Assembly: GCF_018873765.1 (NCBI RefSeq)
Contig: NC_057923.1
Location: 8,754,413 to 8,818,412, forward strand
Length of the DNA stretch: 64,000 nucleotides
Direction of reading: 5' to 3'
Origin: Telopea speciosissima
Lineage: Eukaryota > Streptophyta > Magnoliopsida > Proteales > Proteaceae
Shown here: piece by piece, positions 1,740-61,830 of the stretch
Numbering within the stretch: position 1 is the stretch's first letter
Layout of the letters: each line of letters opens with the position of its first letter
Position numbers and translations under genes: made by a program
The notes under the pieces: model-generated
What the model was told of the DNA's origin: nothing
Database searches by the model: none
The model's input: the letters and a program-made list of their open reading frames with translations, nothing else

Positions 1740-1759
1740 CTCCTCCTTCTTAGCGGGAT

Positions 1760-2187
1760 TTTGATCAAATTCTCTAGTTTCTCACCAAATCAAACACTCG
1801 AGTTCGATCTGTTCTATCTACTATTTTATACACTTGGATATGGGCAAGCGAAGTGTCTCACTCTGAGTCTTAGTCTCACACACTCTCACCTCGTGGGAAG
1901 AAATAAAAAGGCCAGCACTCTTCCCTTGTTCATTTGTTTCACCTGCTTCCATTTATTTATATGGAGGGAAAAGAACAGGTGTCATCATCGGATTGTAAGT
2001 GTAGGTGGGGGAGGACAAAACTGGGCAAGAGTTCCCTGCCTGGTCGTGTAACCCCTGTACCGATGCGTGGGCGATGCGTGGGCTAAAAGAAAACACACAA
2101 ATTTTTTTATTTCACAAGAGACGGAACAATAAATCGGTGCACTCTTATGTGGGTGCACGAACCACACCACCAGGTAATGTTCTTTTT
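1760..2187. other. 5' flank of the AAA-ATPase, no further gene
   Basis: Promoter and 5' UTR side of the minus-strand AAA-ATPase. The last part (about 2140-2187) ends with a CCAGGTAATGTTCTTTTTC stretch resembling the right end of the GGGAAA-ended MITEs seen elsewhere in the window, so another degraded MITE may lie here. No credible coding region is seen. Confidence 0.4.
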
Positions 2188-40100: not shown

Positions 40101-40815
40101 TGTGCAGCAACGCCAAGCATGAATAACTAGGGACATGCCTGAAAATATCAGGCTTGGAAGTGACAAGATGCCAGAATTCTTATTTTTCTTGAGATCTACG
40201 CCTGTAATTTTATGCATTAGTTTCGTTGTCCATCAATATTAAAGATGCTCTGTTGCTAGTTGAAAGACAGCCTTTGCAAGGATATAAAGGACGTACCCAG
40301 TGCATGAGGCACTGGGAATATTATTGCAAGGATATCTGAACCAATATAAGTACTGAAGATATTATTGCGCAGGAGCAAGGATATCTGAACCAATTATTGT
40401 GTTTTTTGATCATTTCATAGTACTATCTGAGAGTGTCATGTCACTAAAAATTGAAAATTGGTGAGGTTAGAATCATATTATTAAATCTGCTAACTCCTGA
40501 ATGGGTCCATTTGCAGTGAAACCGAAGAAGGGTGACGCATTGCTATTTTTCAGCCTTCATCCTGATGCAAAACCTGATCCAAGCAGCTTGCATGGGAGCT
40601 GTCCTGTCATTGAAGGAGAGAAGTGGTCTGCAACTAAGTGGATTCATGTGAGGTCCTTTGATAGGCCAAAGCATTCAGGAAGCGGAGAATGTGTTGATGA
40701 GAACGAGAATTGCTCCCGATGGGCTGCAACTGGGGAGTGTGATAAGAACCCACGATATATGGTGGGCACTGGAGACTCCTATGGATTTTGTAGGAAAAGT
40801 TGCAATGTTTGCTAG
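34129..40815 (+). CDS. Prolyl 4-hydroxylase alpha-like, with C-terminal ShKT domain
   Basis: Eight exons: 34129-34235, 34325-34411, 34513-34570, 34691-34795, 39251-39308, 39404-39579, 39746-39806, 40517-40815. They join in frame to 316 residues, the normal plant length. An N-terminal hydrophobic signal-anchor (MAFRVFLSLLLIFLFSF) is followed by the 2-oxoglutarate/Fe(II) oxygenase domain. The iron ligands are His158 and Asp160 (PHFDYFHD) and His243 (LHGSCPV); Lys253 (GEKWSATKW) is the 2-oxoglutarate-binding lysine. Residues 274-316 are a six-cysteine ShKT domain. Plant enzymes of this type hydroxylate proline in extensins and arabinogalactan proteins in the ER/Golgi. The exon 1 donor AAAAT|GTAGCC is weak but is the only one I found that keeps the frame. 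Intron 4 is 4.45 kb and carries a LINE fragment and tandem repeats. Confidence 0.92.
35863..36254. repeat. 76-77-bp direct repeats flanking a LINE fragment in intron 4
   Basis: GATTTGATTCATGCCATGAG and the following sequence through AACTTGAGACTATA occur at 35863-35939 and again at 36179-36254 with a few differences. They bracket the RTE LINE fragment. They could be an unusually long target duplication or a local duplication that trapped the LINE. Confidence 0.8.
35940..36178 (-). mobile_element. RTE-type LINE, 3' end fragment
   Basis: On the minus strand the sequence encodes the degraded C-terminus typical of plant RTE LINE polyproteins: RGRSKITLSEVVRKDM, then DWRARIYVADPI. It continues into the common 3' end GACCCCATTTAGTTGGGATA. 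The tail ATGTAATTGTTGTATAGAG is a degenerate (TTG)n-like end. About 240 bp remain of an element normally over 3 kb, so it is a 5'-truncated insertion. Confidence 0.78.
37559..37735. repeat. Short tandem repeat in intron 4 of the prolyl 4-hydroxylase gene
   Basis: Units containing TTTGAAACCATAGAT, AGGGTAGAATCCGATTG and TACAATA repeat about three times with a spacing of roughly 40-60 bp. Surrounding sequence (37240-37560) has looser related words. Confidence 0.65.
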
Positions 40816-42331
40816 TCATAGCACGATTATTCACCCAAGAGTTTGTATACTGAGTAAGGGGATTAATTCCTTAGTTGTTGTATATAACTTTCATTGTAAT
40901 TAGCTGGCAGATTCAACTTTTGAATCATGAGAGCTCTTTGTGCCTGTGAGAACATAGTCCATGTAAGAATTGCTTCCTGGAATGAAATAAAAAGTGCCTT
41001 ATCTCCTTTCACCTTGTTACATGCCGAAACCTTGATGGTTCTTCAGAAAAGTCTCTTGAACTAACACAAACCTGATCCAGCCCTACTGAAACTAGTTCTG
41101 GACCTCTGGTAGTCTTCATCACCAGAGAGGTCTGCCCGTTTGGGACTGGGAAGTGGGCAAGGATCCCATGTCCCATGCATATGCTGCCATGTAGTCAGAA
41201 GTTTAGGTCTCCCTGTATCCCCCTATTCTTTCTTTATTTACCTTCATGATGGAAGTTACAAGGTTCCCCGTCCCCATCTTTCTCCCCCACCCTGTCGTGC
41301 TGCTTGATTCCCTTCTGCATCATTGGCCAGATCCAAGAGGTATGGATAGAGATAGATCTATGGATAGGGTTGAATCCCTAGATCGAAGGTTGTTGCCTGA
41401 AATTCAGTTCGAATACTCATAGCCAGTAAAGAAGGTAGTTCAAGCGGTCAAAAAATAACCTAACCTTGGGGTTTGCGCCAAAAGTGGAAAAAAATTTGAA
41501 AAATAATGCCTCTAAGTGCATGAGCAAAGAAGCTTGTTTAATGGTATCTGATACATTGAAAATGTATTAAAGTATCTTCCATTGGTTCGTTATGGAAGTG
41601 TTTCCTTTTTTTTTGGCTAAACTAGTTCTGGAAGTGTTTCGAAAGCATCTTCCTTTGGCTCCCTGAAATGGGGCACTAGAAGCCAGAAAAGGTACGTAAC
41701 TGAGGCTCCAATGATCAGCCCAGATGCATAGCTTGCACCGTTCGATTAAAGCTATCCTCCAGGGAATGCCTTTTTTCTTACTGTTAAAGATCAGATTGCT
41801 GAGCTAAGGTTCTTCTGCAAAGTGAATGGTAGAATGGCCTTGAAACTCTCCCACCCACACTGGGTATCTTAAGAGTACTCTGTTGTTCACTGACTGCAGC
41901 TTCAATTGAAGAAATACTTTATTCATTTACTATTGTCCTTTTGGTCCACTAACCAAGAACAAGGATTTTAGGTTCAATTTATCTAATCATTTTGAAACTG
42001 TTGGGGAGATTCTTGAACATCTATGGGATCTTAGGACAAGTCTATAAAAACATCTCTTGGTACTTCACCACCAGGAGAAACACTATCAAGTATCATCATT
42101 AGGACAAAATTGTTCTTTCCAGCACTACATACTGTAAAGGGAAAGGAGAAAAGGAAAAGAGAAAGCACACCATGATCTTTGACCATCTCCTTTTCTTTCT
42201 TTATCATTTTGTCTGGTTTATTGCCAACCCATTTTATTCCTTAAATCTGTTTCTTTAACATCTATAGAAAGAGAGAGAGAGAGAGAGAGTAATCACCTGA
42301 GGAAGAACTTCTTTCCACTTTGCAGACAAAG
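40816..42331. other. 3' flank of prolyl 4-hydroxylase and 5' flank of LRR gene
   Basis: Likely 3' UTR with a possible poly-A signal AATGAAATAAAAA near 40980. A (GA)n tract lies at about 42267-42289, just upstream of the LRR start. No other gene is seen. Confidence 0.4.
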
Positions 42332-44266
42332 ATGGGCACCAAGCTCTCATGGATTCTTGTCATCTTAATCTTCATTCCCACAGGAGATTGCAAGAGGATA
42401 GTAGGTAAGGAGTGCAACTCACAAGATCTAATGGGCCTGACTAGTTTCAAGGCTGCAATTCATGTTGACACTTCCGGTCGACTAGAGACATGGATTGGCC
42501 GAAACTGCTGCAAATGGAATGGGGTGTATTGCAACAACAGGACTGGAAGGGTGGCAGAAATCCGACTCCCTGGTTTCATATCCACCAATGATTTCATTGC
42601 TCAAACCCAGATGGAAGGTTGGTTATCTCCTTCAATAACACTTCTCAACTCTCTTGAAGTCCTCGACCTCGGTGGACTCATCAGTCTTACTGGAACCATC
42701 CCATCATCCATCGGTTTTCATCTTCCAAGGCTCAGAAAACTCTATCTCTACACCAACAATCTAACTGGGCCAGTCCCAGAAAGCATAGGTAACCTGTCTA
42801 GACTTGAAGAGATCCACTTGCATGAGAATCTCTTATCTGGATCAATTCCTGCAAGCATTGGTTTGCTCCAGAATCTCCAGAGATTTCTATTATATTCAAA
42901 TAAGCTTTCAGGTCCCATTCCAGAGTCTCTTACAAACTTGACAAATTTAGTGAGTCTGGATTTTCAGGGTAATTCCTTAACAGGGCATTTACCAGAGAAG
43001 ATAGGTGCATTACAAGTCTTGGAAGAGCTTGATCTTTCAGATAATCTTCTTAGTGGGAAATTGCCGCTGTCCATAACTAACTTAACTGCCATCTCAGTTT
43101 TGTACTTGGATACGAACTTGCTCGAGGGGGAGATTCAATTCCCATCAAGTTCTGGTGAAATGCCATTACTAGGCTTTCTGAGGCTCCATGACAATCATCT
43201 CACTGGAAGCATACCATTCAACATTGGGAATCTTGTTTCCTTGCAAAGGGTGTCACTAGCTAACAACAGGCTTGAAGGATCCATTCCTTCAACTTTGGGG
43301 AATCTATTGGAAGCAACAGAGATCTATCTGTATGGAAACAGGCTATCTGGTCAGATCCCGAGCTCAATTGGTCGACTTTCTCAGCTAATGCTTCTAAGTA
43401 TTTCTAATAATTTGATTGAAGGACCATTGCCCAGTGAGATGTCTTCCCTGCATAACCTTCAAACGCTTGATCTGTCCTTCAATAGATTAAATCTCTCTTC
43501 TATTCCCAAGTGGTTTGGGGGAATGCCATCGCTTTGCCGGATCTTTCTGGCTGGTGCCGGCATTCAGGGTGATTTTCCAGAATTCTTAAGAACAACTCTG
43601 AGCCCATTACTGGAACTGGACTTCTCGTTCAACCATCTGACTGGAATTATACCAGAGTGGCTGGGGAGTCTCACTAGGCTCTACTCATTGAACCTCTCAA
43701 GGAATTCACTAGTTTCAAAGATTCCCAACACAGTCACTAGCTTGCGGGACTTGGCTGTAGTCGATGTACACTCAAACAAGTTATCGGGACCAATTGATGG
43801 TATCTTCGAGATTGGAAGCAGGTTCTCTGAAGGATCACTGACCTACATTGATCTATCTGATAACAGTTTCTCTGGTGAAACTGAGCAAATTGGAACAGGG
43901 CAGCAGTGTCAGATAAAGTTTCTTAATTTGTCGCATAATTATTTAACAGGCCGATTGCCGGGTTCTATAGGGAGATTGGTCTCAATGAGGAGCTTGGATT
44001 TGAGCAATAATAAGTTGGGTTTTGAATTACCAGAGTCTCTGGCCAATGTAAGCTCGTTAGAAAAACTGAAGCTGCAGAGGAACAGGTTCACAGGTCAGAT
44101 ACCGAATGGGTTTCTGAAGCTGACGGCGCTTAGAGAATTGGATTTGTCAGATAACCTTCTGGTGGGAAGAATACCAGAAGGCAGACCATTGAGTGATTTT
44201 CCGAAGAGTTCTTTCTCTGGGAACAGAGGGTTGTGTGGAAAGCCTCTTTCTCCATGTAAGTTCTGA
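42332..44266 (+). CDS. Secreted leucine-rich-repeat protein
   Basis: Intronless, 644 residues from the ATG at 42332. The signal peptide is MGTKLSWILVILIFIPTGDC. An N-terminal LRR cap follows with CNSQDLMGLTSFKAAI and the paired cysteines NCCKWNGVYC. Roughly 20 repeats of the plant extracellular type (LxxLxLxxNxLxGxIPxxIGNL) run to near residue 620. The C-terminal cap is GNRGLCGKPLSPCKF, after which the protein stops: there is no transmembrane helix and no kinase. The architecture resembles the Arabidopsis At5g23400 type of secreted LRR proteins, some of which are described as receptor-like or polygalacturonase-inhibitor-like. Function here is unknown. The gene lies 1.06 kb upstream of the MYB cluster in the same orientation. 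Confidence 0.9.
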   Translation: MGTKLSWILVILIFIPTGDCKRIVGKECNSQDLMGLTSFKAAIHVDTSGRLETWIGRNCCKWNGVYCNNRTGRVAEIRLPGFISTNDFIAQTQMEGWLSPSITLLNSLEVLDLGGLISLTGTIPSSIGFHLPRLRKLYLYTNNLTGPVPESIGNLSRLEEIHLHENLLSGSIPASIGLLQNLQRFLLYSNKLSGPIPESLTNLTNLVSLDFQGNSLTGHLPEKIGALQVLEELDLSDNLLSGKLPLSITNLTAISVLYLDTNLLEGEIQFPSSSGEMPLLGFLRLHDNHLTGSIPFNIGNLVSLQRVSLANNRLEGSIPSTLGNLLEATEIYLYGNRLSGQIPSSIGRLSQLMLLSISNNLIEGPLPSEMSSLHNLQTLDLSFNRLNLSSIPKWFGGMPSLCRIFLAGAGIQGDFPEFLRTTLSPLLELDFSFNHLTGIIPEWLGSLTRLYSLNLSRNSLVSKIPNTVTSLRDLAVVDVHSNKLSGPIDGIFEIGSRFSEGSLTYIDLSDNSFSGETEQIGTGQQCQIKFLNLSHNYLTGRLPGSIGRLVSMRSLDLSNNKLGFELPESLANVSSLEKLKLQRNRFTGQIPNGFLKLTALRELDLSDNLLVGRIPEGRPLSDFPKSSFSGNRGLCGKPLSPCKF

Positions 44267-45321
44267 TTCATGATGAATAACAATTCTATCTCTTCTGCTT
44301 AATATTTTCAAGGTCCCCCCCCCCCCCAACTTCAAATAGAGTCTATCGTTGACTCTTTCAGTGTTGTACCTCTGCAATGCTTATCAGTGAAAAAGCTAGA
44401 AATTTTTGTCCTTCTGGATTGTTAGGATTCTGGTGTTAGAACCAATAGGACATCAGGGTCCAGATTGAATCAGTATAAGTAAACTGGTTTCAGACCAGGT
44501 TTAACTGATCACATGGAGGATAGGGTGGTCGTAGGGCCAATCCTTCTGGTGCCTCTCTCTCTCTCTCTCTTTCTGTTTTATGAAAGCACACTATAACCAT
44601 GATCTACATGTAAGACGATCTCTCTGTTCTATGAAAGCACATTATACCCATGATCCACATGTAAGAGGAGAGAGAGAGAAGGGGGGCTCCAATCTGAAAT
44701 ATCTCCAAACACAAGATCAACCAAACTAATCAGATAAACTCATAAATTCCGATCTGATGAATCGATCCCAAGAAATGAACACTTCCTCCACACTGATGCC
44801 TCACCAAGAAATAAATGCTGAAGGATGGTAAGGTGGTGTCCCAAGTCTCAACAGCATCTTCATACAAATAGGGTGTTAAATAACTGCAACAGAATTCACC
44901 ACTCTGTTTTGAAGTTGATAAGACTTTTTTCTCCCTTGTGATTATTCCCTAGTTTGTGTGAGAACCTCCTCATTCACAAGGGATACTGATTAATGTAAAC
45001 AACCTGAATAATTCACCCAAAAAATTTTAAAAATTTAGTCAAGGCTCATTGAGCCATGCATATGAAGCATCACTATTTGATATTCCATCTCAAACCGTTT
45101 CCTTGAGAAGATGACATAATCATGCAATTAGTTGTTAAATTGGAGTGAGCCTCTTGCATTTCTCACCTCCAAACTTGTAACGATTAAACCCGTCATCCTC
45201 TTCTCATCTGCAGCAGTACTTTAAACAGGTCTGAAGTTGCATCAGCATCATTTCTATCTCCTTCCTTCTCCTTCATTCTTTTTCCTTGGTTTATTGATGA
45301 AATTTATATCATTGGAGTGAG
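44267..45321. other. Spacer and promoter of the first MYB copy
   Basis: A C run lies near 44317. At 44555-44685 a (CT)n and a (GA)n tract bracket two tandem copies of TATGAAAGCACAYTATA plus CATGATCYACATGTAAGA. From about 44870 the sequence is similar to the region upstream of the second MYB copy (47930 on), showing that the duplication included promoter DNA. Confidence 0.5.
45067..45099 (+). promoter_or_regulatory. Conserved promoter block with AACCGTT, MYB copy 1
   Basis: ACTATTTGATATTCCATCTC followed by AAACCGTT lies about 225 bp upstream of the first MYB start and is nearly identical to 48216-48250 upstream of the second copy. AACCGTT resembles R2R3-MYB binding cores, so autoregulation is possible. 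This is inference from conservation alone. Confidence 0.35.
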
Positions 45322-46995
45322 ATGGGGAGAACACCCTGTTGTGATAAATTGAATGTGAAGAAGGGTCTTTGGACTGCAGAGGAAGACGCAAAGATACTTG
45401 CATATGTGTCGGAACATGGTACAAGTAACTGGACATTAGCACCAAAGAAAGCAGGTTAGAAGTTTTCAGCCAAAGTTGTTCAATGTAATACCAGATATCT
45501 TTTAAATGCGGATTAATGTATGTGTCATTTGATTTCTACAGGACTTAAAAGATGTGGAAAGAGTTGTAGGCTTCGGTTACCTGAGGCCAGATCTCAAGCA
45601 TGATAGATTTACTCCTGAAGAAGAGATGTTGATTATTAACCTTCATGCAGCCATAGGGAGCAGGTGGATTGCTTAAATCTTAATATGGGCTCTTGGAATA
45701 ATTTACTTAATTTTTTCTTGTACAAAGAAAAGATATATCTTGCTGTTGCCTTCTAAGTCACCTGTGCTACTATATTTTTTCCCAAGTTCATAACAGAAAC
45801 TTCCCAGTGAACTATTTTGAAGTATGCTGGATTGCGTTAATGGTTGGTACTTGGCACCCCCAACCGTCATGTTGCCTAGCACCAACATATATTTCCTCTG
45901 GGAAGCAGGAGAAAGTTGTGTCACCCATAACCTAGCTGATCATAACAAACTCAACTTTCTATGATATATAGAGGAATACAGGACTGAATAACCTCTTTCT
46001 GTTACTAATGCTAGGATGTAACTCCCCCTCTGTGTCTAACAGAATTTCCATGACTTATTTGGTGCAGGTGGTCTCAGATAGCAGCCCATTTGCCAGGAAG
46101 AACTGACAATGATCTCAAGAACTACTGGAATACTAAGCTGAAGAAGAAACTCTTGGAAATGGGAATCGATCCTGTGACCCACAAGCCCTTCAATCAGATC
46201 CTCGCTGAATATGAAAATATTGCTCATCTCCCAAAAGCTATAACCCAAATTGGCTCCTTCAATAGAGACTTAAGAAACACATTCATGTCGAAATCAGAAG
46301 TATCTTCAGTCCTGGAAGGAAGTGTTTCGAGTCTTATGACCCATTCAACGGTGGCTATAAGGACTCCAAAGATGGAATCAGTTCAAGATGGCCTCCTAAT
46401 CAGCGAAAGAAGTAACAATAACTGCTCATGGGACCTTCAAGATCAGCTTCAGACCATGAGACTAGTTAAAGAAGCCACAAGCTACACTAACGAAGAAACC
46501 ATCCATCCACATTTCTTCAGTGAAGGTTCTTCTTCATCATCATCTTCCAGCGCTACTGCCATGCAGGTGAATTGGCCACTACCCTTTGCTTGCGAAGAAC
46601 CATCTCTGCTTCAGACTGCACCAGACCTTCCCTGCAGTTGGAATGAATTCCTAATAAAAGACCCCTTTCTTCCTCCTGCACCACAACAGAGGCATGAACA
46701 AGAAGACTTTCAAGGAATATTGTCAACCGGCTCATCAAGTGAAATACAAGTACAATATGAGATACGAGAAAGCAACTTAATGGATGAAGGTAGCAAAAAA
46801 TTTAGTGTAGAACAAGTGGGTTATGACTCATTCAACAATATAGGTGAAAGTTATCCAGGAACAGTTGGAGGTGAACCCAGAAATATTTTCAAGGGATCTT
46901 TGTCATCCAATAATTCCTTTATGGAGGCGATAATCGACCAAGACAGTCAGATCTCATGGGAGTTTCCTTACATTTTTGGTGAACCATTTTACTGA
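45322..46995 (+). pseudogene. TDF1/MYB35-like R2R3-MYB, copy 1, disrupted
   Basis: Exons 45322-45454, 45542-45663 and 46068-46995 align with copy 2. Exon 1 ([20 protein letters not shown]) and exon 3 ([40 protein letters not shown]) are open. Exon 2 is 122 nt instead of 130: the eight bases TGGACTAA encoding part of RWTNYLRP in helix 3 of the R2 repeat are absent, which shifts the frame and leads to a stop at GCATGA. The rest of the exon, splice sites and 300-codon exon 3 are intact, so inactivation looks recent, or the gap is an assembly or sequencing error. Family role: tapetal development and function (TDF1, upstream of AMS/MYB80) in anthers. Promoter DNA is shared with copy 2. Confidence 0.8.
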
Positions 46996-48462
46996 ATTTT
47001 GTAGTTAAGTAAATTGTAAAACTGAGCCTTTGTAGTGTGTTTCTGGATGAGGGTTTACATATTTGTCACCATGTCTTGGCATTGGATCCTGCCTTCACCT
47101 TAAGGAGGGGGGGTTTATGAGGTGGAGGGTAATATTGTGGCACCCAAAAAAGAAAAAGTTTCTAGTGATGGACTTGTATAAATAACAAATGATTCATTTA
47201 TAGGACACAGCTTTCTGTCGTGTGAACCCCAGCAAGTCCTTATTCACGACTTGAGATCTGGGAAAGTTGGAGCTTGCAAAGGACTCAGGTAACCCAGTTC
47301 TTGAAATTATCCACTGGTATGTACTACCACCAAGGAGATCACCTTATATCTAGAACAACCTTTGACCACTCTGCCTTCAGAATCAGGGCAACAGTTTTAA
47401 GAGGCATGATCCAGTGTACACAGGCAGGTCAAGGGGTTCAACCGAAATTAGGACAATCCTCTCAGCCATCTCACCTTAGTCTGTGACCAACCAAAGCAAC
47501 CTGAATGATGAAGCCTAATTATCCTACTTGGCCAAGCTCATAGTTGCATCAGCTAACAAATCAGTGGAGATAGAATTCGGATCCCTGCGGGTTGTGGCTT
47601 GCAAAGTAGATGTCACCTTCTACCTATCGTCTGATTTGTAATACATCAAGATTCTAAATGGATAGCTTGGTTTTAATGAAAAAGAACCAGAAATGATGGA
47701 GGACTCATCCTTTACACATTGAGATGATAGCAATATTCAACATTTTCTTTCAGAAATAATAATACTGGTATAAATGCCATTATAATACTTCTTGAAGTCT
47801 GAACTAAGTTGATACTGGAGCTTATACTAACCGTCAATTATCCTCCATTGTAACATTTTTTGGCCTTCTTATCACTATAATGACAGCACCAACAGTTTGG
47901 CCAATGTAAACTACATGCTCTACTGTTCATGCAAACTGGGTGTTAATAGCTGCAACAGAATTTACTACCTTATTTGTTTTCATAGCATACTCAATAGTTA
48001 AAATTAATGGGTGCTTTCAGTGTTCTGATTACTCACTAATTAGGAAGACCTCCCTTTAATAACACACAACATATACACACCAATAATAAAATTAACAGCC
48101 CCCTATAAAGAAATAAACTTGGTTAGATCAATGTTTAACCAAATAATTCACCCATCTTGAACCTGACTCAATGCTCTTGCGAGCAAAGCATATGAAGTGT
48201 GAGGGTTGGAAGGAGAAGCATTACTATTTGATATTTCGTCTCAAACCGTTCTTGAGAGGATGACACTATTTGTGCAGTTATAGTTAAATTGCAGTGATCC
48301 CCCATGCTTTTCATGCCTCAAAACTTGTAAACTTTTAAACCCATCTTCCTCCTATCCTCATCAGTACTTGTAAAGAGTTCTGAAATTGCATCATCACCAC
48401 ATCTGTTTCCCTATCAAACCTTATATTTAGGTTTCTAGACAAAGTTTAGATCATCAGAAAAG
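46996..48462. other. Spacer and promoter of MYB copy 2
   Basis: 3' flank of copy 1, then a region from about 47835 that is repeated at 54920 upstream of copy 3 (shared words CCAACAGTTTGGCCAATGTA, ACATGCTCTACTGTTCATGC). No other gene is seen. Confidence 0.5.
48216..48250 (+). promoter_or_regulatory. Conserved promoter block with AACCGTT, MYB copy 2
   Basis: GAAGCATTACTATTTGATAT followed by TTCGTCTCAAACCGTT, about 215 bp upstream of the start, matches 45067-45099. The spacing to the ATG is almost the same in both copies. It is lost in copy 3. Confidence 0.35.
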
Positions 48463-50711
48463 ATGGGGAGACCGCCATGCTGTGATAAGTCAAATGTGAA
48501 AAGGGGTCTTTGGACCGCAGAGGAGGATGCAAAGATACTTGCATATGTATCAATGTATGGTACGGGTAACTGGACATCAGTGCCAAAGAAAGCAGGTTAG
48601 GAGGTCTTCACTCTTTAGACGAATTGCATAAAAAAATGTGTAATTTTGTTTTATCTAACTAAAGTGGATTCATGGTTGTGTGAGCTGAGTTCTACAGGAC
48701 TTAAACGATGCGGGAAGAGTTGCAGGCTTAGGTGGACTAATTACCTAAGACCTGATCTCAAGCATGATAGCTTCACACCCCAAGAAGAAAAGTTGATTGT
48801 CAAACTTCATAAAGCCATTGGAAGCAGGTGGATTACTTCTACCACTCATTATTTTCTGGAATTATTTATTTTCTTGTTTCTTTTCCCCCTTTCTACCATG
48901 GTACTGCATTTTATCTTCCTTTGTCCTTTCCTGCTCTATTGCTAATGTTGTAATTTCCTTTTAAGTGTAGAATTTGGTTGAGATTTTGTAGTTGTCATCT
49001 GAGGGAAGCAAAGGAGAATGTCAAGCAACTCCTGTTAGTTTGTGGGTGAAGGGTAGAATTTTCTGGTTTCTGACGTGTTTCCTCTCTCTCTTTTCCAAGG
49101 TTTCAAAATTTTTTTTTCTTGGTAAACCCTTAGAAGCATGGTTTCTTTGTTATTCAGCTAATCTCCCCAAAAGACAATAGCTTCTGGTCAGGAGCATGGT
49201 GAAAGGGAGTGCAGCCATTTAGAAGCACCATTCAAAATTATATCCAAGCTACACTAATTGCTAACTACCTCACAAGACACCACTTGAATTAGCCAGAACA
49301 CAAAAGATAAAACATCTAATGCAAGATCATTTAATGGGGTGATTCATTCCCCCCAGATCCCCCTAATGTTCTAACAAGTAGCGATTTATTTTTTTGACTG
49401 TTTACTATATCTCCTTTCATCCAGATCACCTCTTTGTCTTAGGTAGTTATGTGATTTTATTAGAACAGACTCACAGCTATAGTTAAAGAACCACCCCCAA
49501 GAGCTGCACCAAATAAAAATGTTTTGATGGATAAGTAGTTGGGCCACATGAATGGTCTTGACCTATAGCATCAGCAACCATTATGTTGGTGGGCAGTGGC
49601 ACTAAGATATATTTCCTCCTTAAGCATGGCATTTGCGAAGCAGCAAAAACATGTCAGCCATGTCTGAGATGATCATAACAAACTTAACTTCACATGACAT
49701 GTAGAGTAACAACCGTACCACATAGCCTGTTTGTTACTGAAGGAAGGATAATGATTCTCTCTCTCACACACAAAAATTGGATGGCTACTTTGGTGCAGGT
49801 GGTCTCTAATAGCAGCCCAGTTGCCAGGAAGAACTGACAATGATGTTAAAAACTTCTGGAACACTAAGCTAAGGAAGAAGCTCTATGACATGGGAATTGA
49901 TCCCATGACCCACAAACCCTTCTCTGAGATCCTGACTGACTATGGGAACATTGGTGGTCTCCCGAAAGCAGTTGGTTCCCTTAATAGAGACTTAAGGAAT
50001 GCATTCACATCCAAACCAGAAGCATCTTCAGCTAGTGGCATCTCTAATATCACAAGCCATTCAATGGAAGTGATAAGGACTCCAATGATGGAACCAATTG
50101 AAGATGGACGGTCAGACAGCATTAGCAATAATAACTACTACTCGTGGGACCTTCTGGGTCAGCTTCAGGCCATAAAACTAGTTAAAGAAGCCACAAACTG
50201 CAGCAATCAAGAAATCATCCAACCCAATTTCTTTAGTGAAGGATCATCTTCATCATCTTCCTCTTCTACTGCCATACAAGTGAGTTCACCACCACCACCC
50301 TTTCCTTGCACACAATCACCTCCACCTCAGACTATACCATCCCCTCCATTCAGTTGGAATGAATTCCTTCTAGAAGATGTGTCTCTTCCTCCTGATCAAC
50401 AACAGCGACAACAATACATTCATGGGTTGCCATCAACTGGTTCTTCAAGCCTAACACAAGTACATGATAAGATGCAGCAAAGCCAATTAACCGGTGGTGA
50501 AACTAACAATAATTTCAGTGTCGTTGGAGACATGGATTATGGTGCATTCAATGACATAGGCCAGAGTTATCCAGGAACGGTCGGAGGGGAACCCATCGAT
50601 GTCTTTGGCGACTCTTTGTCATCTAATAATTCGTTCGTGAAGGCTATATTGGAACAAGACAGCCAGATGTCGTGGGAATTCCCTGATATTTTGGGGGAAC
50701 CATTTTACTAA
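48463..50711 (+). CDS. TDF1: TDF1/MYB35-like R2R3-MYB transcription factor, copy 2, intact
   Basis: Exons 48463-48595, 48698-48827 and 49799-50711 with GT-AG introns give 391 residues. The R2 repeat runs from about 14 to 61 ([40 protein letters not shown]) and R3 to about 112 ([20 protein letters not shown]). Just after the MYB domain is the subgroup-specific stretch [20 protein letters not shown] and LNRDLRNAF, which identifies the TDF1/MYB35 group. The C-terminus has Ser- and Pro-rich stretches and an acidic end ([14 protein letters not shown]), plausible as an activation region. In Arabidopsis and rice this factor is needed for tapetum function and pollen; in Asparagus a TDF1 homologue lies in the male-determining region. 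Whether this copy has the same role is inferred. The symbol marks family assignment, not proven orthology. Confidence 0.88.
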
Positions 50712-51095
50712 GTATGAATAGATCAACAAGTTGCTGAACCAAACCTTAGTAGAGTTCATCAATGAGGGTTTTCATACTAATAGTGATATATATGATCTTT
50801 TAGATAAAATAGAATGTTTCTACAGTTTCAGTTAGTGGTAAGAAGAACTCCAATTTATTGTTATTAGTATTATTATTATTTTTACTTAGTTATGTGTTCT
50901 AATGCACAGAAACTCAATGGGAATGGAAAGGGTTGGAGGTCCTGAAGGCACAAGGAATCCAAGATTGTCCTTTTTATTATTACTAACAAGAAACCCATGA
51001 AACGCAGGGGAGGTAGAAAATAACCATAAAAAATGATTTACGGATGATAAGTAACCTGGTAAAATCTGCCAAAACATTCAACTATTTGGATAGTG
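50712..51095. other. 3' flank of MYB copy 2
   Basis: Probable 3' UTR followed by AT-rich sequence; no repeat recognised. Confidence 0.35.
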
Positions 51096-51420
51096 TTACC
51101 TTCCATGCGCCTCGGCCATCTTTTCATCTTTGCAAAGACCATTCAGGACAATGTTGAAGGTTCTTCGTTTCTGGAAAATTTCCATGGCCCACCTTGTCAT
51201 CGGAAGGAAGAAAAAAATTGTAGCTTCTTTCCTGAGCAATCAATTCAACAAACACTTGAATAGCCCCATCTATATGGCGTTTTTGCACAGAGAAAGCACC
51301 GTAGGTGCAGGTAACCTTTTTGGAAATACTGTAGTGAGAGATTAAACCCGGAATAGGGAGCAAAACTCAACGCAGAATCAAGCAAAGTGGTCCAAATTTG
51401 CATCGATCTCTTGAGAAATT
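51096..51420 (-). pseudogene. Degenerate PPR-protein fragment
   Basis: On the minus strand, 51188 to 51096 reads AMEIFQKRRTFNIVLNGLCK then DEKMAEAH and a stop, close to a plant pentatricopeptide repeat (TYNxLIxGLCKxGKxxEA). At about 51283-51234, in another frame, KRHIDGAIQVFVELIAQ resembles the end of the preceding repeat (GxxDGAIxVFxEM). The frame is not continuous between them and no organelle targeting sequence or longer repeat array is visible, so this is a relic. The upstream part to 51420 is weak. Confidence 0.5.
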
Positions 51421-52177
51421 CTCCAACTGAGTCAAAATTACTAGACCAGAGACTCCCTGGAATGTAGGACAAGCAAAGAAAGAAAAACCAGGATTAGCCT
51501 TTAGATGGGAAGAACCACATGAGTGGTCGTCCCTGAAGAACGCAACGTGGGAAGCGACCTTCTGATCATCTGTGACTTTAATTAGCAGTAGTTTCAACTT
51601 TCACGCTTGCAGCGAACTACTAGTAATTTGTAACACTTTCTAGCTTCTCAGTAGTGGAATTTGCAAGTTTGCAGGAAAAGGAAGTGAAATTCGGATTTGG
51701 GTATCCTCACGAGATGTTCAACACAATTTCTTAGGTTTTCATACTTCACATCACTACCTCTTTATATGGCATTTAATCGTAATCCAAGCTTAACAAATAG
51801 AAAAAATTAACTGTGATTATGGTTTGAGGTTTCCGTCGAATCAATCAAAATAGGTTGAGATCTATCCCATTTCTTGCAATCCTCTTTTGAATCGCCTATG
51901 ATTCATGTATGATCTTTATTTTTCTGTCATTTTTAATAGTACAAAACACTCAGAATTTTAACTTTTGTAGCAAGTTCCCCAAGTCTATTCAATCAAAAAC
52001 TGTAAAAAAAAATCACATGGGAAAATCTTAGTTTTTTTATTCTCGATTCCAATTTCAAGGGTTCCGACAGATTCCGGCCAATTCAGATCCATTTGACCAG
52101 TACAATCCAATGTTTGATTCTGGGTTCTTGAACCTTAATTGTGAATCCAACTAGCCATGAATTAGTTTTTTTTTTTT
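51421..52177. other. Spacer
   Basis: No gene or repeat recognised; ends in a poly-T run used as the target of the next element. Confidence 0.35.
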
Positions 52178-53751
52178 GGGTGAGTCTGTTTGTAACCAAG
52201 CAGGTTACAAACAGACTTTGTAACCGGACATTATATGCCCTTAAATGTAGTTGATTCCAATTTCAATAGATGGGTAAATAAAGTAATTTCACACTTTTTA
52301 AGTATCAGGTTGTTTAAATATGTTAAATCCATTTAGTTAAAGGGTAGAATAGGAACTCCGTATACCTAGCCCCTAACTCAATATTGTTTGATCGAATAAA
52401 CTTGCCGGAGCGATCCTTCCCCTTGGCCACCATGGATTCAGGTTAGAAGAATGGATTCTACCAAAAAAAAAAAAAAAGGGTAAGAAGAATTAGAAGAAAC
52501 ATTACCCAAATTATCATTTGTATCGATCACCGACTGCCATTTCTTTTCATTCTCTATTCCACTTTTTCAGAGCTTGTGATCAAGTTTCTACCTTTGAAGG
52601 TCTTCAATCTCATTTTTTTTAAAAAAAAAAAAATTTATGTACGCCATTGAGGAGACTGAGTAGTAGCCAATTTTGCTAAAGTGAACAAACGTACAATTGA
52701 GTTGCTAATGCAATGGAACCACCAATGGACGTCTAAAATCCGAATCAACAACAACATTGGCCCTCAAGACAGAAAGAAAATGATGATGCCCAGTTTGAGG
52801 GTCTCGAAGAAATCGGCGGAGAGGGCCGAGAATGGGAGAGACCATTGATCTACCGTAGTGGTTGCGCTGTTACTACCGATGAACCACAACTACCACTGCT
52901 AATTATATTGAAAGCATGAGCAGAAGAAACATTTAAAATACTAAAATCTTGAGGTTGCTCGCTGTTAATTATGTAGGCTAGGTGAAATTGAGTGCTTGCA
53001 TACTCAGGAATCTGAATCTTTCTAAATGCGAAACCTATTGGAATTTATTTTATTTTATTTTTTTCTGCTTCTCTGGAGGTGCAAAAATTTTAAGCATGAA
53101 GAGATAAGCAGATACATAAATGGGAAAGGGGGATTTCAGTCTATTGATTTCTCCATCTTCTTTTTATGACATATCTTCTCAGCAAGTTTCTGCAAACTTA
53201 TAGGAAAAATCCACGAATTCATCGGTTGTGGAAGCTGTCTAAGTTTGAAATGGAGAGTAACAGGAAAAATTCTCACCGATATCATTCCTTGGGTGTTCTC
53301 AACGGTTCCTTCTACAATAGACACCATCACGCGATCTCTCTTCAACGCCACGGTTGTCAGGGAAGGGGGTAGTTGCAGATGGGGTTGGGGCGGGCAGCAA
53401 ACAGAGGAGGGGGTGGGACCATGGAGGCAGGGGTTGGTGAAGTCAAGGAAAGGGTGGGAGACAGAGGGGGTGCTGCGTGGAGTTGTACATGGATGGGATG
53501 GGAAGAGGGAGCCAACGCCGGAGAGGGAGAGGAAGTTAAGAAACTAGTACGAATGACGAACCTGCATATTCCGGCTATTACCGACGAGTCCAGCAAGTTA
53601 CTTCCATTCCATGCCATGTATATGACAATAGAAACTTTTAACATTTTTTTCCTACCATCTACCAAAAGAGAAATGACAATTTAATCCCTAATGTGGCAAG
53701 ATCAATACATGTCTGATGGGCATAAATGAGAGGTTACAAACAGCTTTTCCC
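52178..53751. mobile_element. Long GGGAAA-ended element with GC-rich interior (possible Pack-MULE)
   Basis: The right end, read inverted, is GGGAAAAGCTGTTTGTAACC; the left end is GGGTGAGTCTGTTTGTAACC. The left end is doubled as a small palindrome (52185-52217). T-rich runs flank both ends. The 1.57-kb interior is less AT-rich than its surroundings, especially 53330-53560, where one strand reads as Pro/Ser-rich (SSPSPALAPSS, MVPPPPLFAARPNP), like an N-terminal region of a plant gene. No transposase is present. Capture of host gene DNA by a Mutator-like element is the natural explanation, but the source gene was not recognised. Confidence 0.5.
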
Positions 53752-54499
53752 TTCTTTTTTTTTTTGCATTTAATACTTTCTGAAATATTTAATTTGTTAA
53801 TGATTAGTAATCCAGCTAGTAAAACAAAATATCATTAAAGCAAGGGTGTGTGTACGTTTATGCTAATTTGGAATACTTTTGTACAAAAAAGTGTTAGTGT
53901 GGTAAAACTGGAAAAAATATTTCTACCACTAAAACAAAAAGAAACATGTATGAAATGCATATTAACATAAGTATATCTTCTGGAGGTAGAGGTAGAGGTG
54001 GAGGGGGAGGTGGTGGTGGAGGCGGAGGCGGAGGCAGAGGCGGTGGCGGTGGAGGTTGAAGTTGCATTGGCGATGGTGGTGCGGTATTGAGGTGGTGGTG
54101 GTGGCGATAGTCAAGTCATTATTAGTTATATTATGTTTTAGTCTTCTTCTTTTTTTTTTGTGTTTCTGTTAAAAAAAAATCATCTTTAATTTGTTTCTCA
54201 AAGCTATTCCAATTGTGTTTTTTTTACCTGGTTCATTAAGAATAAAAAAACACAAAAACAGATCAAATGTGACATACATGTTCTGTTCCAAATGTATTCC
54301 AAAAAAACACCAAAAGTATTTTTTTTACGATGCCATATAGACCCCAAGTGACTTCTGCAGCTCCACAAAAATGAAACCCCACTACTATACGTGGAAATCT
54401 TGATCACTTATGACAAGTTGACATGTGGCAAGCCTAGAATGAGTAACTCAAATTATTACTATATAGACTCACCAAGTCATCTCTGCATTATGCCAAAGG
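53752..54499. other. AT-rich spacer
   Basis: Contains the GGN tract listed separately (53983-54105) and T-rich runs; no gene. Confidence 0.35.
53983..54105 (+). repeat. (GGN)n trinucleotide tract
   Basis: Uninterrupted GGA/GGT/GGC triplets such as GGAGGCGGAGGCGGAGGC and GGTGGTGGTGGTGGC. It would encode polyglycine in one frame but has no supporting start or flanking protein. Confidence 0.8.
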
Positions 54500-54813
54500 T
54501 GTTAGGGTGCACGACCCTCTCGTAGAAAAGTCTGGGCACACCCCCTTCTTGCAGAAAGGTCTGAGTGTTTCGGCATCAGGCAGACAAGCCTAGACCCTCC
54601 ACCACCATGCTAAGAAGTCAAATCCATGCACCATTTCTCCTATAAATAAGAAGGTGAAGCTCAAGGTAAACTTTTATCATGTTGTCTGGATTCTAACTTA
54701 AGCTCAAAGAGTCCCCTACAGAGTCCAACTCCGTCCCTCTTATACACATTCTCTATTTTAAGGTGTGCAATTCTCCCAGTGACAAGTCATCCATTCAGAT
54801 TTGAGCGGCAACA
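54500..54813 (+). mobile_element. Probable solo LTR of a Ty3/Gypsy-type element (fossil)
   Basis: Starts TGTTAGGGTGCACGACC and ends GCGGCAACA. It has a TATA-like CTATAAATAAGAAGG and downstream words TTAAGCTCAAAGAGTCCCCT resembling LTRs of plant Gypsy elements. CTATTAGACGTAGG just after the end is faintly like a TGGCGCCG primer site. No internal region is found, so it is a solo or truncated, old and broken copy. Confidence 0.48.
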
Positions 54814-54919
54814 CTATTAGACGTAGGAATTGAATCACTAGATTAAGTTTAGATCAGAGAATGCAATTCCCATGATGGTCTGGCAATTGCCCTTTATAAA
54901 TTGCTAAAATAGCAATGTA

Positions 54920-55800
54920 TAATCCTCAATTATCCTACATTATAACAATTTATGGCCTTCTTATCACAGTAATGACAGCACCAACAGTTAGGCCAATGTA
55001 GACTACATGCTCTACTGTTCATGCAAACTGGGTGTCAACTGTCAATAGCTGCAACAGAATTAATTCCTTGCTAGCTATAATTATTTGTTTCCATAGACTT
55101 CTTATCTATAGTTATTAACAGAAAATCCCTATAAAGTAATAGCTTGGTTAGATCAAAGCTTAACCAAATAATTCACCCATCTTGAACCCGACTCAATGCT
55201 CTTCGAAGCCTAGCTCAAATGCTTTTGATATGATATTTCATACATTTCATGCCTCCAAACTTGTAAAGAGTTGTGAAATTGCATCATCATCCTCACCATC
55301 ACCCCTTCTATTTCCCTATCAAACCTTTTATATATCTTTAGGTTTCTTGACAAAATTTACATCATAGAAGATGGTTGCATATGTATTGAATTATGGTACA
55401 GGTAACTAGAGATTAGTGCTACAGAAGCAGGTTAGGTGGTTGTTTTCAATTCACTCTTGATATATAGTTTGATCGAAACAAAAGTAGATCATAGTTGTGT
55501 GTGATCTGAATTCTATAGGGGACTAAAGCGATGCGGGAAGAGTTGTAGGCTTATGTGGACTAATTACCTAAGACCTTATCTCAAGCATGATAGCTTCACA
55601 CCTCAGGAAGAAAACTTGATTGTCTACTTGATTTTGTAGTAGACATTGAGGGAAGCAAACAAGAATGTCAAGCAAGGTGGTCTCTAATAGCATCCCAATT
55701 GCCAGGAAGAAGTGAAGAACTAACAATAATGTAAGAAACTTTTGGAATACTAAGCTGAGAAATAAGCTCTATGAGATGAGAATCGATCTTTGCCCTTCTC
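54920..55800 (+). pseudogene. TDF1/MYB35-like remnant, copy 3
   Basis: Upstream DNA from about 54920 matches the promoter region of copy 2 (47840-48440). At 55371 ATGGTTGCATATGTATTGAA is exon 1 with about 75 nt of its 5' coding part missing, and the tryptophan codon of GNW is TAG. Exon 2 (from about 55520: CGATGCGGGAAGAGTTGTAG, TGGACTAATTACCTAAGACC) is recognisable. It is followed directly by a scrap of intron 2 (GGGAAGCAAACAAGAATGTC, matching 49002-49024 of copy 2) fused to exon 3 (GTGGTCTCTAATAGCATCCC). Exon 3 decays after about 120 bp. Retained intron pieces show DNA-level duplication, not retroposition, and copy 2 is its closest relative. Confidence 0.85.
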
Positions 55801-57167: not shown

Positions 57168-60100
57168 TTATTGTGGCGAAAGGGGTTCTTGACCCAACCC
57201 CAATTGATGATAATTTGGGTAGTCAATCCCATTCAACCTAACACAACACAAGATCTGCTCTGGCAAGTCTTCAGCCTTGTTGCCCTGTGCCACCAAAAAA
57301 ATGTAACACAGCATTGATGAACAACAGATTATAAACTCAGAAGCAATTTAAACTTGTTATGAATCTCAAATGGAAAATTTTACCTGAATTGTCAGGCCAA
57401 AATCCAATACGCAGAGCTTCAGTCTGTCTTGGAATGCTTCAAAACCTTTCCTAGAGATATAACTGAATCTGTGCATATCCAAATCAATCTCGAAGTAGTT
57501 TTCACCCTGTACAAGATTTCAGGGTAGTCATGCTAGTGAGGAATATACAGAGATAACAGCAACTATTTTCTAGTGTTCTTTTAAGTTCAGTATTTCTTGA
57601 CTTGCTTGTATTGACTGAATTATGGTCATGATATTCCCAAAAGCAGCATGTAAACATTAGAAGGGAAATTTTTTTTTTTTTTTTGGGGTGGGGGCGCTGG
57701 GGTGGGGTGAGATGAGAGGTAAAGGAGGATGTGATGCTACTATTTTTAATTTTATCCAAAAATGACTCCATGACCTACAAGCAAATCCCTAGAGAGTTGA
57801 CAAATAAATAAAAAGCAAGTGCAAGATAAGGTAGCAATCAGACAATTGAATTCTGCAGAAAAAATGGAGGGATCCCAAACTGTTAGTTGGCTACATTAGC
57901 CAGACTGCCTTTAATAATTGGTGACCAATTTAATGCAAAATAGTAGAAAAGATAGCTACACATGAATGCAATATTATTGACAACACAATTTCTATTACAA
58001 CATTCCTGACCAGGACAAGAACAGATTTATATATATATAAAACTCCAATAACACACTCCGAGGACTAGGGGTGTAAATGAATAGCCGAAATCCGTGTCCA
58101 TATCCGTTTAGCACTATCCGAATCCATCCAAAAGCTAAACGGATGCGGATGCGGATAGGCTATAGCTATCCAAAAAGCTATATTTACATGTAAACGGATA
58201 AAATATCTGATCCGTATCCGTGTCCGTATCCATTTAGCACTATCCGAATCCGTCCAAAAGCTAATCGGATGCGGATGCGAATGCGGATATAACACTATCC
58301 AAGTCGAATCCAATCCGTTTACATCCCTACCGAGGACCACAGGTTTCAAATCAGATTTACAATTTTACATGCGAATACCCAAAGTTTTAATCGCAACTTG
58401 ACTCACTTCAGTTTTTCTCAACTGTCCCAAGCAATTAGATTTGAAGATATTTTCTTTTTAGTCTCACAGAATAGGTCTGGCCCAACCTGAGTTGCTTTGA
58501 ATTTTATGCTTCTATTTTTTTTTTTTAAAGATGCTTTGAATTTATGCATGTCACTAAATTGGCCGCCGCTTTGAGCAGAATTTGGAAGAAGCCTCAACAA
58601 TGATAAGATGCCCAAGAGAGAATGGGGATCTCGGGAGGCAAGAGGCAGGTCAAATGATCTTATTGTGATATGAATGCAAGAAGGAACTGTTCATGCCATT
58701 CTGGATGTAATAAATGAATAATTTGTTGGAATCCCCTACATCCTTGAGCTGCCTCTTCAAGACAAAACAAAGCTTTAGAGGATATATTCATCTTGGGGCA
58801 AAGAATATACAAAATGATCTAAATTCTCACTGTTAACAATCGGAACTGAATTGTAGTCCTCAAGGAATTAAAATATAGAAGAGAGCATTTCAGCCCATGT
58901 TTAGACCAATGATACTTTGTCACCCTATCTCTCACAAGGAAGGCAACTAAATGTTACTTCCTATGAGGTAAAGGACAAGGAAGATTCAAACTCAACGCAA
59001 TTAAACCATATACAACAAAGAGTTGGGGGGGGGGGGGGGAAGAGGGGGAGGGAACACCATTAGGATCTGAATTGTCATGAAAAGCAAAACTGTAGCTTTA
59101 CAAATCACAGTATAGCAATCTGACTGAGAAAACATAAGCTTACCAAGTAAAATTCATGCTGAGGACGTGAAAGAACAGGTTTTTCATTGTAAGCATGCAT
59201 AAGCTTCCTCTCAGCTGCACTTAAATGAAGATCATCCACATTTACTACACGACCCAAGATCTTTAACCTTTCCCGGAAGGGAACTATGGTATCTACAGGG
59301 AAACCTTTGACTTTTTCTACTTCATCATCAATTATCCTCTGTTCAAAAACAAATATTGACATAAACCAATAAATGCACTGAGAATCAGGAATAGATAAAT
59401 AAACCAAAAATAATCTTTCCTTTTCCAATATGAGAAACAAATAAATGTCATGTGTCTTGCACCAACAACAACAGGTAATACTTACAATAACATTCCAAAC
59501 ATACATGCTTCAGAAACTAGCCACATGAATAAATTAATATTGCTCCATTAGAACCAACAGGATAGATTGAGAAGTACCTTGCTAAATAGCAATAGGTATT
59601 AAAGATATGAAGCAGAGAAACTCAAAATTACAGAGGTTCTGCCTTACTCTGATATTTTCTTGGAAGTGAGGAGGAAGTTCTTTAGCATAACTATTAGAAA
59701 GCCGAAAGTACAATACAAAACTCATCCCTTCGCCATCTGTCTCACTTTGAAAAATTGTGGTAGGATATAATGGAATCTGCAGAAACCAAAATAGCACAAC
59801 AGCATTAGTAATAGTGGTAGTCTCTTTGTGGGTAATGTACTCTTTATTTGACAATTTGAGATATGACAATATTTCCCACATATAAGAAGTAATAAATTCA
59901 AGTGAGACAAATAGAGAAAACCGAGAAGAGTGAAAAAGCACTGGAAGTTGATGATATGAATACCTGAATATTTACAACAAGAATTGGTGGTAATTTGCCA
60001 GATGAATAATTTATAGGAGGGAGCTCCACAAACCGAGCGATATGATCAATTTTCCTCGGTGACAAGAATACATCAACACCCAACGGAGAATAAGCCGCAT

Positions 60101-61830
60101 AATTTGGAGCGAATTCCTTCTTTTTGTCCCTGACAGAGGTATTACATGGATGAGAAAATAAGAAAAGAATTGATAAGAGTTCAGATACTAAATGGAAGTA
60201 TGGTTTATATGTTTGATATAACTGATAGAAAACATAACCAAAAGAAAACTGTTCCTCTTACCTTAAATAATTCTCTCCCCGGACTTTGAAGGTACCAGGG
60301 TCAACATATGACCAACAATCAAACATTTGCTTCTCTACTGGGCAGAATGGAACTTGGGAACCTGCTATAGGTCTTTGCAGAAGCATCTTTGAGGATACTG
60401 AAACAGAAACATAGAAGGAAAAATATGAGTTACCTTCATTTAAGGCTTGTCTGCTAATCCAGCCTGCTACAAGGCCTACCAACATATCACAGCTTATAAA
60501 AATCGAGGCCCACAAATTATCTGTATGATTCATGTGAAACCATATATATTTAACAACCTAAAAGATGGATACTAAATTACTAACACATGGTTGACGAAAA
60601 CTATCAGAGCAATTAAGAGAATAATAGTTTAGGCCTTTCCACATGTATACATGACAAATGATAATTTCGCAGTCAGCACAAGGTGAACGCTCGCATCTTG
60701 AATTTCAGTAGCAACCAGTGTAAACAACCACATAAAATAGTTAGAGCGCAACAGGTTAGATTTATGTTTGACTAACAACCAAATATCAAAATAAATGGAA
60801 GCACTCACATATTTCAGGATTGGGATGTCCTTCCTTCAATTTGAAGGAAAGTTTTGAAGCAGACTTTTTCCTTGCACTTGGGGGACCAGGGCTCAAGGAC
60901 CTTCTCTTTTCAATAGAGGGGACAGTGGAAGCGAGACAAGGCAAGCAGGTGTTTGGAAGAATTCCACAATTGTCCATTATTCCTCCCTCTCTGCCAGAAC
61001 TTTCATCCACAGAGAGGCTAGAGACTTCGTCAAGGGAGATAGAAGACTTTCCTCCACTTAAAGGGCCATGAGGTTTGGCTTGGGAGTCAGCATCATCAGA
61101 ATGCATGACCCGAGTACTTGCATTTTTAGCAACTTCACTCACAGAATGGCATGCTGAATTTCCATTTAACGGTTCCCCTGGCTTATGTTTCCGATCAGTT
61201 GACAGAATGCTTGGATGATTGCCATTACAGTCATGAGCAGTATCTCTCAGAGATGAAATTCTTGAGACAGATGCACTCTCAGAGCCATTTAATGACAAAG
61301 CATCTGCAGAAGGTAGACAAATCATGCACATCAACAAGTGGTTTCCCAAAAGTTAAGGCTAAGTTGGTCAGAGTAGGAAAGGGAAAGTAAGGTGTGGTGA
61401 AGGCATGAAGGGAAAGGATAAAAGAAAAATAAGCATTTTCCACCACTTCCCAACTACCATCAGGAGGATGATGTGAATTTTGAAAAAAAACAAATAGTGG
61501 AGTTTTTTGCTTTTCATTTTCCATGTTGCAGTCGGGTTGGATTTTCAACAGATAAGTTTTAGAAAGTTTGATGGACAAATGGAAAAGGCATGATTAAGAT
61601 CTTCTTTCACAACCAAACATATCAAAAGTTACTATTCAAAAGAAAACAGTACAACATCCCCCCATTTCTTGTTATTTCCTCATTCCACTTCCAACTAAAC
61701 ACACTATAAAAGAGACTTTTATGCATGGTGAGCTTCACAGTCATACCATCAGCAACACTTTGGAAATCGTCATCACAGTCGGACTCAAATATTGCAACAG
61801 AGTCAAACCACGCCTCCTCAGTGCTTCCGG
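57168..61830 (-). CDS. DUF1336 (EDR2 C-terminal-like) protein, 5' end outside window
   Basis: Eight exons in transcript order: 61747-61830, 60809-61303, 60262-60397, 59964-60129, 59648-59776, 59144-59338, 57384-57506, 57168-57284. Phases are consistent and give 481 complete codons including the stop, plus a split first codon. The first visible exon begins within the family motif [11 protein letters not shown] and continues [12 protein letters not shown]. Exon two is Ser-rich and contains [20 protein letters not shown]. The DUF1336 domain follows: [108 protein letters not shown]. The protein ends near [17 protein letters not shown]2 itself is a negative regulator of disease resistance; members like this one lack its PH and START domains and are mostly uncharacterised. 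The missing first exon, usually encoding a basic N-terminus, should lie beyond 64000. Confidence 0.88.
58066..58329. mobile_element. hAT-like MITE, 264 bp, in an intron
   Basis: Exact 8-bp duplication CCGAGGAC at 58058-58065 and 58330-58337. Ends TAGGGGTGTAAATG and GTTTACATCCCTA are inverted. The interior is periodic (ATCCGTATCCGTGTCCGTAT, GGATGCGGATGCGGATA). It lies in the intron between DUF1336 exons 57384-57506 and 59144-59338. Confidence 0.87.

Follow-up and report, generated by a model that had tools for sequence, protein, structure and literature searches.

The 64,000-nucleotide window of Telopea speciosissima (waratah) DNA analyzed here, which lies on contig C8, carries three head-to-tail copies of a TDF1/MYB35-type R2R3-MYB gene, with exons mapped at 45322-55788, and a further gene of this type was found on contig C3. 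As stated by the initial annotation, which was made from the sequence of the window, one copy has a single frame break, one is whole and one has collapsed, and upstream DNA was duplicated together with each copy. The break proved to be an 8-bp deletion, the whole copy encodes 391 amino acids, the collapsed one is a fragment in seven pieces, and alignable upstream segments are present at all three. The comparison of these genes supports, with good confidence for the scenario as a whole, an old tandem pair that preceded a block duplication, followed by a loss on C3, a recent break of copy 1 and a later origin of copy 3. In this scenario an ancestral TDF1 gene would have been duplicated in tandem ahead of a large, probably whole-genome, duplication that gave rise to the C8 and C3 segments, and both tandem copies would have been retained as protein-coding genes after it. 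On C3 the stretch holding the counterpart of copy 1 would then have been lost, leaving one TDF1 gene, while on C8 both would have been kept until an 8-bp deletion cut part of the R2/R3 linker of copy 1 and truncated its product after 64 amino acids. Copy 3 would be a later duplicate of copy 2 that subsequently decayed. We regard this as an ordinary instance of duplicate genes being lost, in which the order of ages is unusual.

Copy 2 (48463-50711, plus strand; exons 48463-48595, 48698-48827 and 49799-50711) encodes 391 amino acids in a reading frame without break, including two MYB repeats (PF00249, E 7e-35, in two stretches). A whole-genome search with the copy 2 protein gave at least 145 matches, and 106 of the 758 first-look candidates were scored. 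Among the matches listed, one locus outside the window stood out, on the minus strand of C3 and 75% identical to copy 2 in exon 3; it contains an unbroken gene of 385 amino acids. Identity and extent singled out just the three window copies and this C3 gene as TDF1-like among the same listed matches. The genome therefore has two intact TDF1 genes on different contigs, copy 2 on C8 and the C3 gene.

Copy 1 (45322-46995, plus strand; exons 45322-45454, 45542-45663 and 46068-46995) was 60% identical to copy 2 in the exon 3 protein (E = 5.9e-105; E = 1.3e-173 for the DNA match), indicating that the likeness is not due to chance. Its exon 2 measures 122 nt compared to 130 nt in copy 2, and the alignment assigns the difference to a single gap of 8 bp within the R2/R3 linker. 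The reading frame of exon 3 stays open over 308 codons, and apart from the 8-bp deletion no further break was seen. Translated as it stands, copy 1 reaches a stop after 64 amino acids, 60 nt ahead of the final exon junction; a null is therefore expected, and nonsense-mediated decay of the transcript may occur. These features suggest that the function of copy 1 has been lost, a loss that need not impair fertility since both copy 2 and the C3 gene are intact.

The relative age of the copies was determined from synonymous divergence (Ks; Nei-Gojobori with Jukes-Cantor correction, own script, 95% bootstrap intervals). Ks was 0.714 (0.55-0.94) between copies 1 and 2 and 0.755 (0.58-0.95) between copy 1 and the C3 gene, compared to 0.412 (0.32-0.52) between copy 2 and the C3 gene, and both copy 1 distances exceeded the latter in 2000 of 2000 resamplings. 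Noncoding DNA gave the same pattern, with copy 1 distances of 0.392 and 0.395 against 0.269 between copy 2 and C3 (495 columns; four of four segments agree). Since copy 1 stands at a Ks of 0.71-0.76 from copy 2 and the C3 gene, which are separated from each other by 0.41, copy 1 probably arose as a tandem paralogue long ago, ahead of the block duplication. An R2R3 protein tree was built from 12 sequences, namely copies 1 and 2, the C3 gene, two MYB80-like genes and seven other MYBs (of 13 other MYB loci of this genome that were tried, six were dropped for gaps, leaving the seven that had fewer than 12). When rooted on the MYB80-like and other MYB sequences, copy 1 fell outside the pair formed by copy 2 and the C3 gene (support 91.9/91), as it also did in a codon-model tree of five sequences (support 94). 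Gene conversion between copies 1 and 2 was considered and rejected, because in none of the 14 windows compared along the coding alignment did copy 1 come closer to copy 2 than the C3 gene did.

The window was also compared with a 120-kb stretch of C3 around the C3 TDF1 gene, the one TDF1 gene in that stretch. There were 86 matches in all, 50 of them inverted and on one coarse diagonal. These 50 cover 21,992 of the 64,000 window bases (a third) and span 145-62905, being sparse in 8-16 kb and 24-32 kb, and place the partner block of the window, inverted, at C3:9.98-10.03 Mb. Some of the off-diagonal matches are dispersed repeats, and the block at 2303-3038 is in the other orientation. The upstream neighbour of the cluster is an open reading frame (ORF) for a leucine-rich repeat (LRR) protein (42293-44266, plus strand), which is open in the window; on C3 just a decayed tail was found, the matched piece carrying four stops. 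This tail, which matches window positions 43993-44247, ends about 70 bp from DNA matching the window from 47511 onward, that is, from upstream DNA of the copy 2 type, indicating that the copy-1-bearing stretch of C8 is missing on C3. The paired C8 and C3 segments are probably part of a whole-genome duplication. A recent whole-genome duplication is reported in Macadamia (PMC8906886), and limited evidence for an ancient one is described for Eidothea (PMC13080361).

The constraint on copy 1 was estimated from the ratio of nonsynonymous to synonymous divergence (Ka/Ks) by path on a three-way tree of 377 codons. Ka/Ks was 0.30 (0.21-0.44) for copy 1, 0.16 (0.07-0.42) for copy 2 and 0.33 (0.20-0.63) for the C3 gene; the value of copy 1 is near that of the intact C3 gene, indicating that the two were constrained about equally. 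To derive a rate of lesions, intron 2 was aligned between copy 2 and the C3 gene (717 columns, 159 substitutions; 16 of 20 gaps not a multiple of three), and the codon content of copy 1 was taken into account. For each unit of neutral divergence, copy 1 would be expected to acquire about 178 disabling lesions. As no lesion was seen beyond the 8-bp deletion, the break was dated within about 0.017 (95%) of neutral divergence, on the assumptions of equal indel rates and of the deletion having been the first lesion. The synonymous branch since the block duplication is approximately 0.19-0.22 per lineage. To judge from these sequence comparisons, copy 1 was probably long constrained and broken recently.

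A single lesion in a coding sequence that is otherwise constrained, together with an upstream region that can still be aligned, is also what would be seen if copy 1 had not been lost in the species at all: the deletion would then be either an error of assembly or an allele of low frequency, and most plants would have a working, intact copy 1. The heterozygosity of 0.76% reported for T. speciosissima (PMC13080361) would accommodate such an allele. On the other hand, a second copy-1 sequence, as expected from another haplotype, was not found in the genome, where 45322-45700 gave six matches, the best other than itself being copy 2 at 74%; a second haplotype of copy 1 among these matches was thus rejected. 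The loss of 8 bp outside a homopolymer would moreover be untypical of read errors. We therefore regard an intact copy 1 in most plants as possible but rather doubtful, and a recent break of copy 1 as the better explanation.

The great age of copy 1 raises a further idea, which we put forward only tentatively and hold to be improbable on balance. Copy 1 may represent a second ancient TDF1 lineage that split approximately when the Proteales left the other eudicots, or earlier, that long served beside the ordinary TDF1, and that is now dying in waratah, perhaps still segregating, with intact counterparts in other Proteaceae. Transversion divergence at fourfold degenerate sites (4DTv) was 0.229 (0.133-0.362) between copies 1 and 2 and 0.170 (0.094-0.265) between copy 2 and the C3 gene, with overlapping intervals. 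The ratio of these values is near that between the grape-Macadamia peak (about 0.14) and the peak of the recent Macadamia duplication (about 0.10; PMC8906886), which lends slight support to an ancient lineage.

Several results weigh against the conclusion that copy 1 is older than the block duplication. In the approximately unbiased (AU) test the two other rootings had p values of 0.0765 and 0.0771 with protein, 0.0987 and 0.0983 with all codon positions, and 0.326 and 0.244 with codon positions 1+2; the rooted topology being indecisive, the age order leans on synonymous distance and assumes similar rates. Furthermore, the flanking C8/C3 pairs scatter. Three stop-to-stop ORFs, two of which are probably one gene and possibly include intron sequence, gave Ks of 0.35, 0.53 and 0.56, whereas an AAA-ATPase reached 1.07 against the nearest of its four copies on C3, and the decayed LRR tail, compared over 73 codons, reached 1.22. 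A thaumatin ORF of the window had no match in the C3 stretch.

With alternative rootings not rejected at 5% (AU p 0.077-0.33), and with copy 3 showing one further duplication and decay, it could be argued that the cluster is the product of recent tandem birth and death: the block duplication would have come first, copies 1 and 2 would have originated on C8 thereafter, and copy 1 would simply be a dying gene that evolved fast. This is unlikely, because the Ks of 0.71 between copies 1 and 2 was far above the 0.41 between copy 2 and the C3 gene in every one of the 2000 resamplings, because the Ka/Ks of copy 1 is 0.30 and not 1, with one lesion in about 390 codons, and because copy 2 and the C3 gene were closer to each other than copy 1 was to either in all 14 alignment windows. 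The view of the initial annotation that copies arise and die repeatedly at this locus was thus not borne out, since copy 1 probably predates the block duplication and was long constrained, and only copy 3 looks like a later, abortive addition.

Copy 3 (55375-55788, plus strand) is a remnant in which parts of the first two exons and of both introns survive together with the beginning of exon 3, preceded by an upstream remnant (54920-55374, plus strand) that reaches the ATG. The seven pieces within 54920-55788 were 75-92% identical to copy 2. Copy 3 lacks most of exon 1 past the ATG (copy 2 48467-48531) and the end of exon 2, as well as the greater part of both intron 2 and exon 3. Over 651 columns the distance of copy 3 was 0.157 to copy 2 and 0.216 to the C3 gene, the former being the smaller in 0.9995 of 2000 resamplings; copy 2 and C3 were 0.164 apart. 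Going by these distances, copy 3 is most likely a later partial offshoot of copy 2. Its placement after the block duplication leans on this greater nearness to copy 2, the distance between copies 3 and 2 having been smaller than that between copy 2 and C3 in just 0.65 of the resamplings. The former distance was the smaller in three of three upstream segments and the larger in three of three coding-bearing segments, as expected if copy 3 lost constraint. The younger duplicate is thus most likely the more ruined and the older copy 1 the better kept, so that decay does not follow age; the copies do differ in their degree of decay, as had been proposed, but they do not form a simple series of decay stages.

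The upstream region of copy 1 (45064-45321, plus strand) aligned with those of copy 2 and the C3 gene, and that of copy 2 (47511-48462, plus strand) aligned with that of the C3 gene. In the upstream DNA common to all three window copies, the copy 1 part comprises 44859-44902 and 45064-45321, and the copy 3 pieces (54920-55374) align to copy 2 pieces within 47828-48466. Upstream blocks (45064-45321 and 48215-48462), for example TTTGATATT and CTCAAACCGTT, occur at copies 1 and 2 as well as at the C3 gene, and coincide with an alignment gap of copy 3. An E-box, CATATG, present upstream of copies 1 and 2 and absent upstream of the C3 gene and copy 3, was discarded as too weak to serve as evidence. 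The spacer that separates copy 2 from copy 3 holds a dispersed repeat of about 1.56 kb (52178-53738, without assigned strand) with close relatives elsewhere in the genome, on C1, C3, C7 and C9, at 90-93% identity. Near its ends are GTCTGTTTGTAACC and GGTTACAAACAGC, which resemble the short terminal inverted repeats of a DNA transposon.

The identity of the cluster as TDF1/MYB35 is well supported by the neighbouring genes and by kinship with MYB80. In the R2R3 tree copy 1, copy 2 and the C3 gene grouped apart from the other MYBs, and the two genes which we provisionally take to be MYB80-like came next (support 89.8/85). An R2R3 sequence taken as that of Arabidopsis TDF1, used as a lead only, was 78-80% identical to the copies and grouped with them (96/94); within this group it joined copy 2 and the C3 gene with weak support instead of lying outside the three (83/72), a placement that lends thin support to the tentative view of copy 1 as an ancient lineage. 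Besides the cluster, the 64 kb contain two positional markers: gene pieces for a 2-oxoglutarate-Fe(II) oxygenase (34132-40812, plus strand), whose ShK domain is consistent with a type 2 prolyl 4-hydroxylase, and an AAA-ATPase matching the At3g28540-like lid family of Pfam (138-1781, minus strand). MYB80 is named as the closest relative of TDF1 (PMC8519818), AtTDF1 is At3g28470 (PMC10118275), and the type 2 prolyl 4-hydroxylases are taken to include At3g28480 (PMC11275109). The neighbours of the cluster thus match the At3g28470-At3g28540 stretch and fit the surroundings of AtTDF1, in agreement with TDF1 identity, nearness in Arabidopsis being read from locus numbers and not from a map. The AAA-ATPase has four tandem relatives at C3:10027518-10049595, one with two stops in the matched piece. 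Downstream of the cluster are gene pieces with an EDR2 C-terminal domain (59147-61813, minus strand).

In soybean ms6 a change at leucine L76 causes sterility (PMC8519818). A leucine is present at residue 77 of copy 2, one off the soybean numbering, and likewise in copy 1 and the C3 gene, but not in the MYB80-like genes. In the Arabidopsis tapetum TDF1 is directly targeted by DYT1 and acts upstream of AMS, MS188/MYB80 and MS1 (PMC10118275, PMC8519818). By family and position, copy 2 and the C3 gene are likely to be the working TDF1 genes; their products would be DNA-binding MYB regulators in the tapetum of the anther, with DYT1 upstream of them and AMS and MYB80 downstream.

The initial annotation had also raised a possible difference between the sexes. 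The flowers of T. speciosissima, which are protandrous and exclusively outcrossing, release their pollen onto the tip of their own style (PMC3112089); they are therefore bisexual, and a role in separate sexes is not expected. TDF1 is Y-specific in Asparagus (PMC5665984, PMC5296871), but a sex-linked locus comparable to that male-specific TDF1/MYB35, and with it sex determination or sex-linked copy number, was rejected as extremely improbable, since T. speciosissima does not show the dioecy that accompanies the Asparagus-type gene, two intact TDF1 genes remain on two contigs, and the locus sits in an ordinary collinear block.

The cluster shares its gene family with aspTDF1/AoMYB35 of Asparagus, a single Y-specific gene (PMC5665984), whereas the waratah genes form a cluster in a bisexual species, and a further contig carries a second intact gene. 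Like At3g28470, OsTDF1, GmTDF1-1/MS6 and HvTDF1, its members are R2R3-MYB genes with MYB80 as nearest relative; unlike them, they form three tandem copies, two of them broken, with a fourth gene on C3. Paralogous TDF1 genes within one genome are also known in soybean, where GmTDF1-1 and GmTDF1-2 are a recent pair, 92% identical, one being the major gene and the other weakly expressed (PMC8519818). Copy 1, in contrast, is only 60% identical to copy 2 in exon 3 and probably predates the block duplication. No report of a tandem TDF1 cluster was found in the literature, judged mainly by titles and the beginnings of abstracts, and we do not claim its absence from print. No paper among those searched names both Proteaceae and MYB35, and TDF1 duplicates are mentioned neither in PMC12604464 nor in passages of PMC10952600.

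The two MYB80-like genes, at C2:51.148 Mb and C7:60.604 Mb, had a Ks of 0.407 over 172 codons, one gene being cut short by the chosen end point; this equals the Ks between copy 2 and the C3 gene, and the two pairs are perhaps duplicates of the same event. Two tapetum regulators, TDF1 and MYB80, would then perhaps both have been kept duplicated after one event. TDF1 is a central regulator of the tapetum that recurs in male sterility and maleness, as in soybean (ms6), lily and Asparagus. If the history proposed here is true, a spare TDF1 gene in tandem was held under constraint from a time before a large duplication and then lost through one small deletion, and the waratah cluster would be well suited to studying why the spare of a key regulator is first kept and then dropped.

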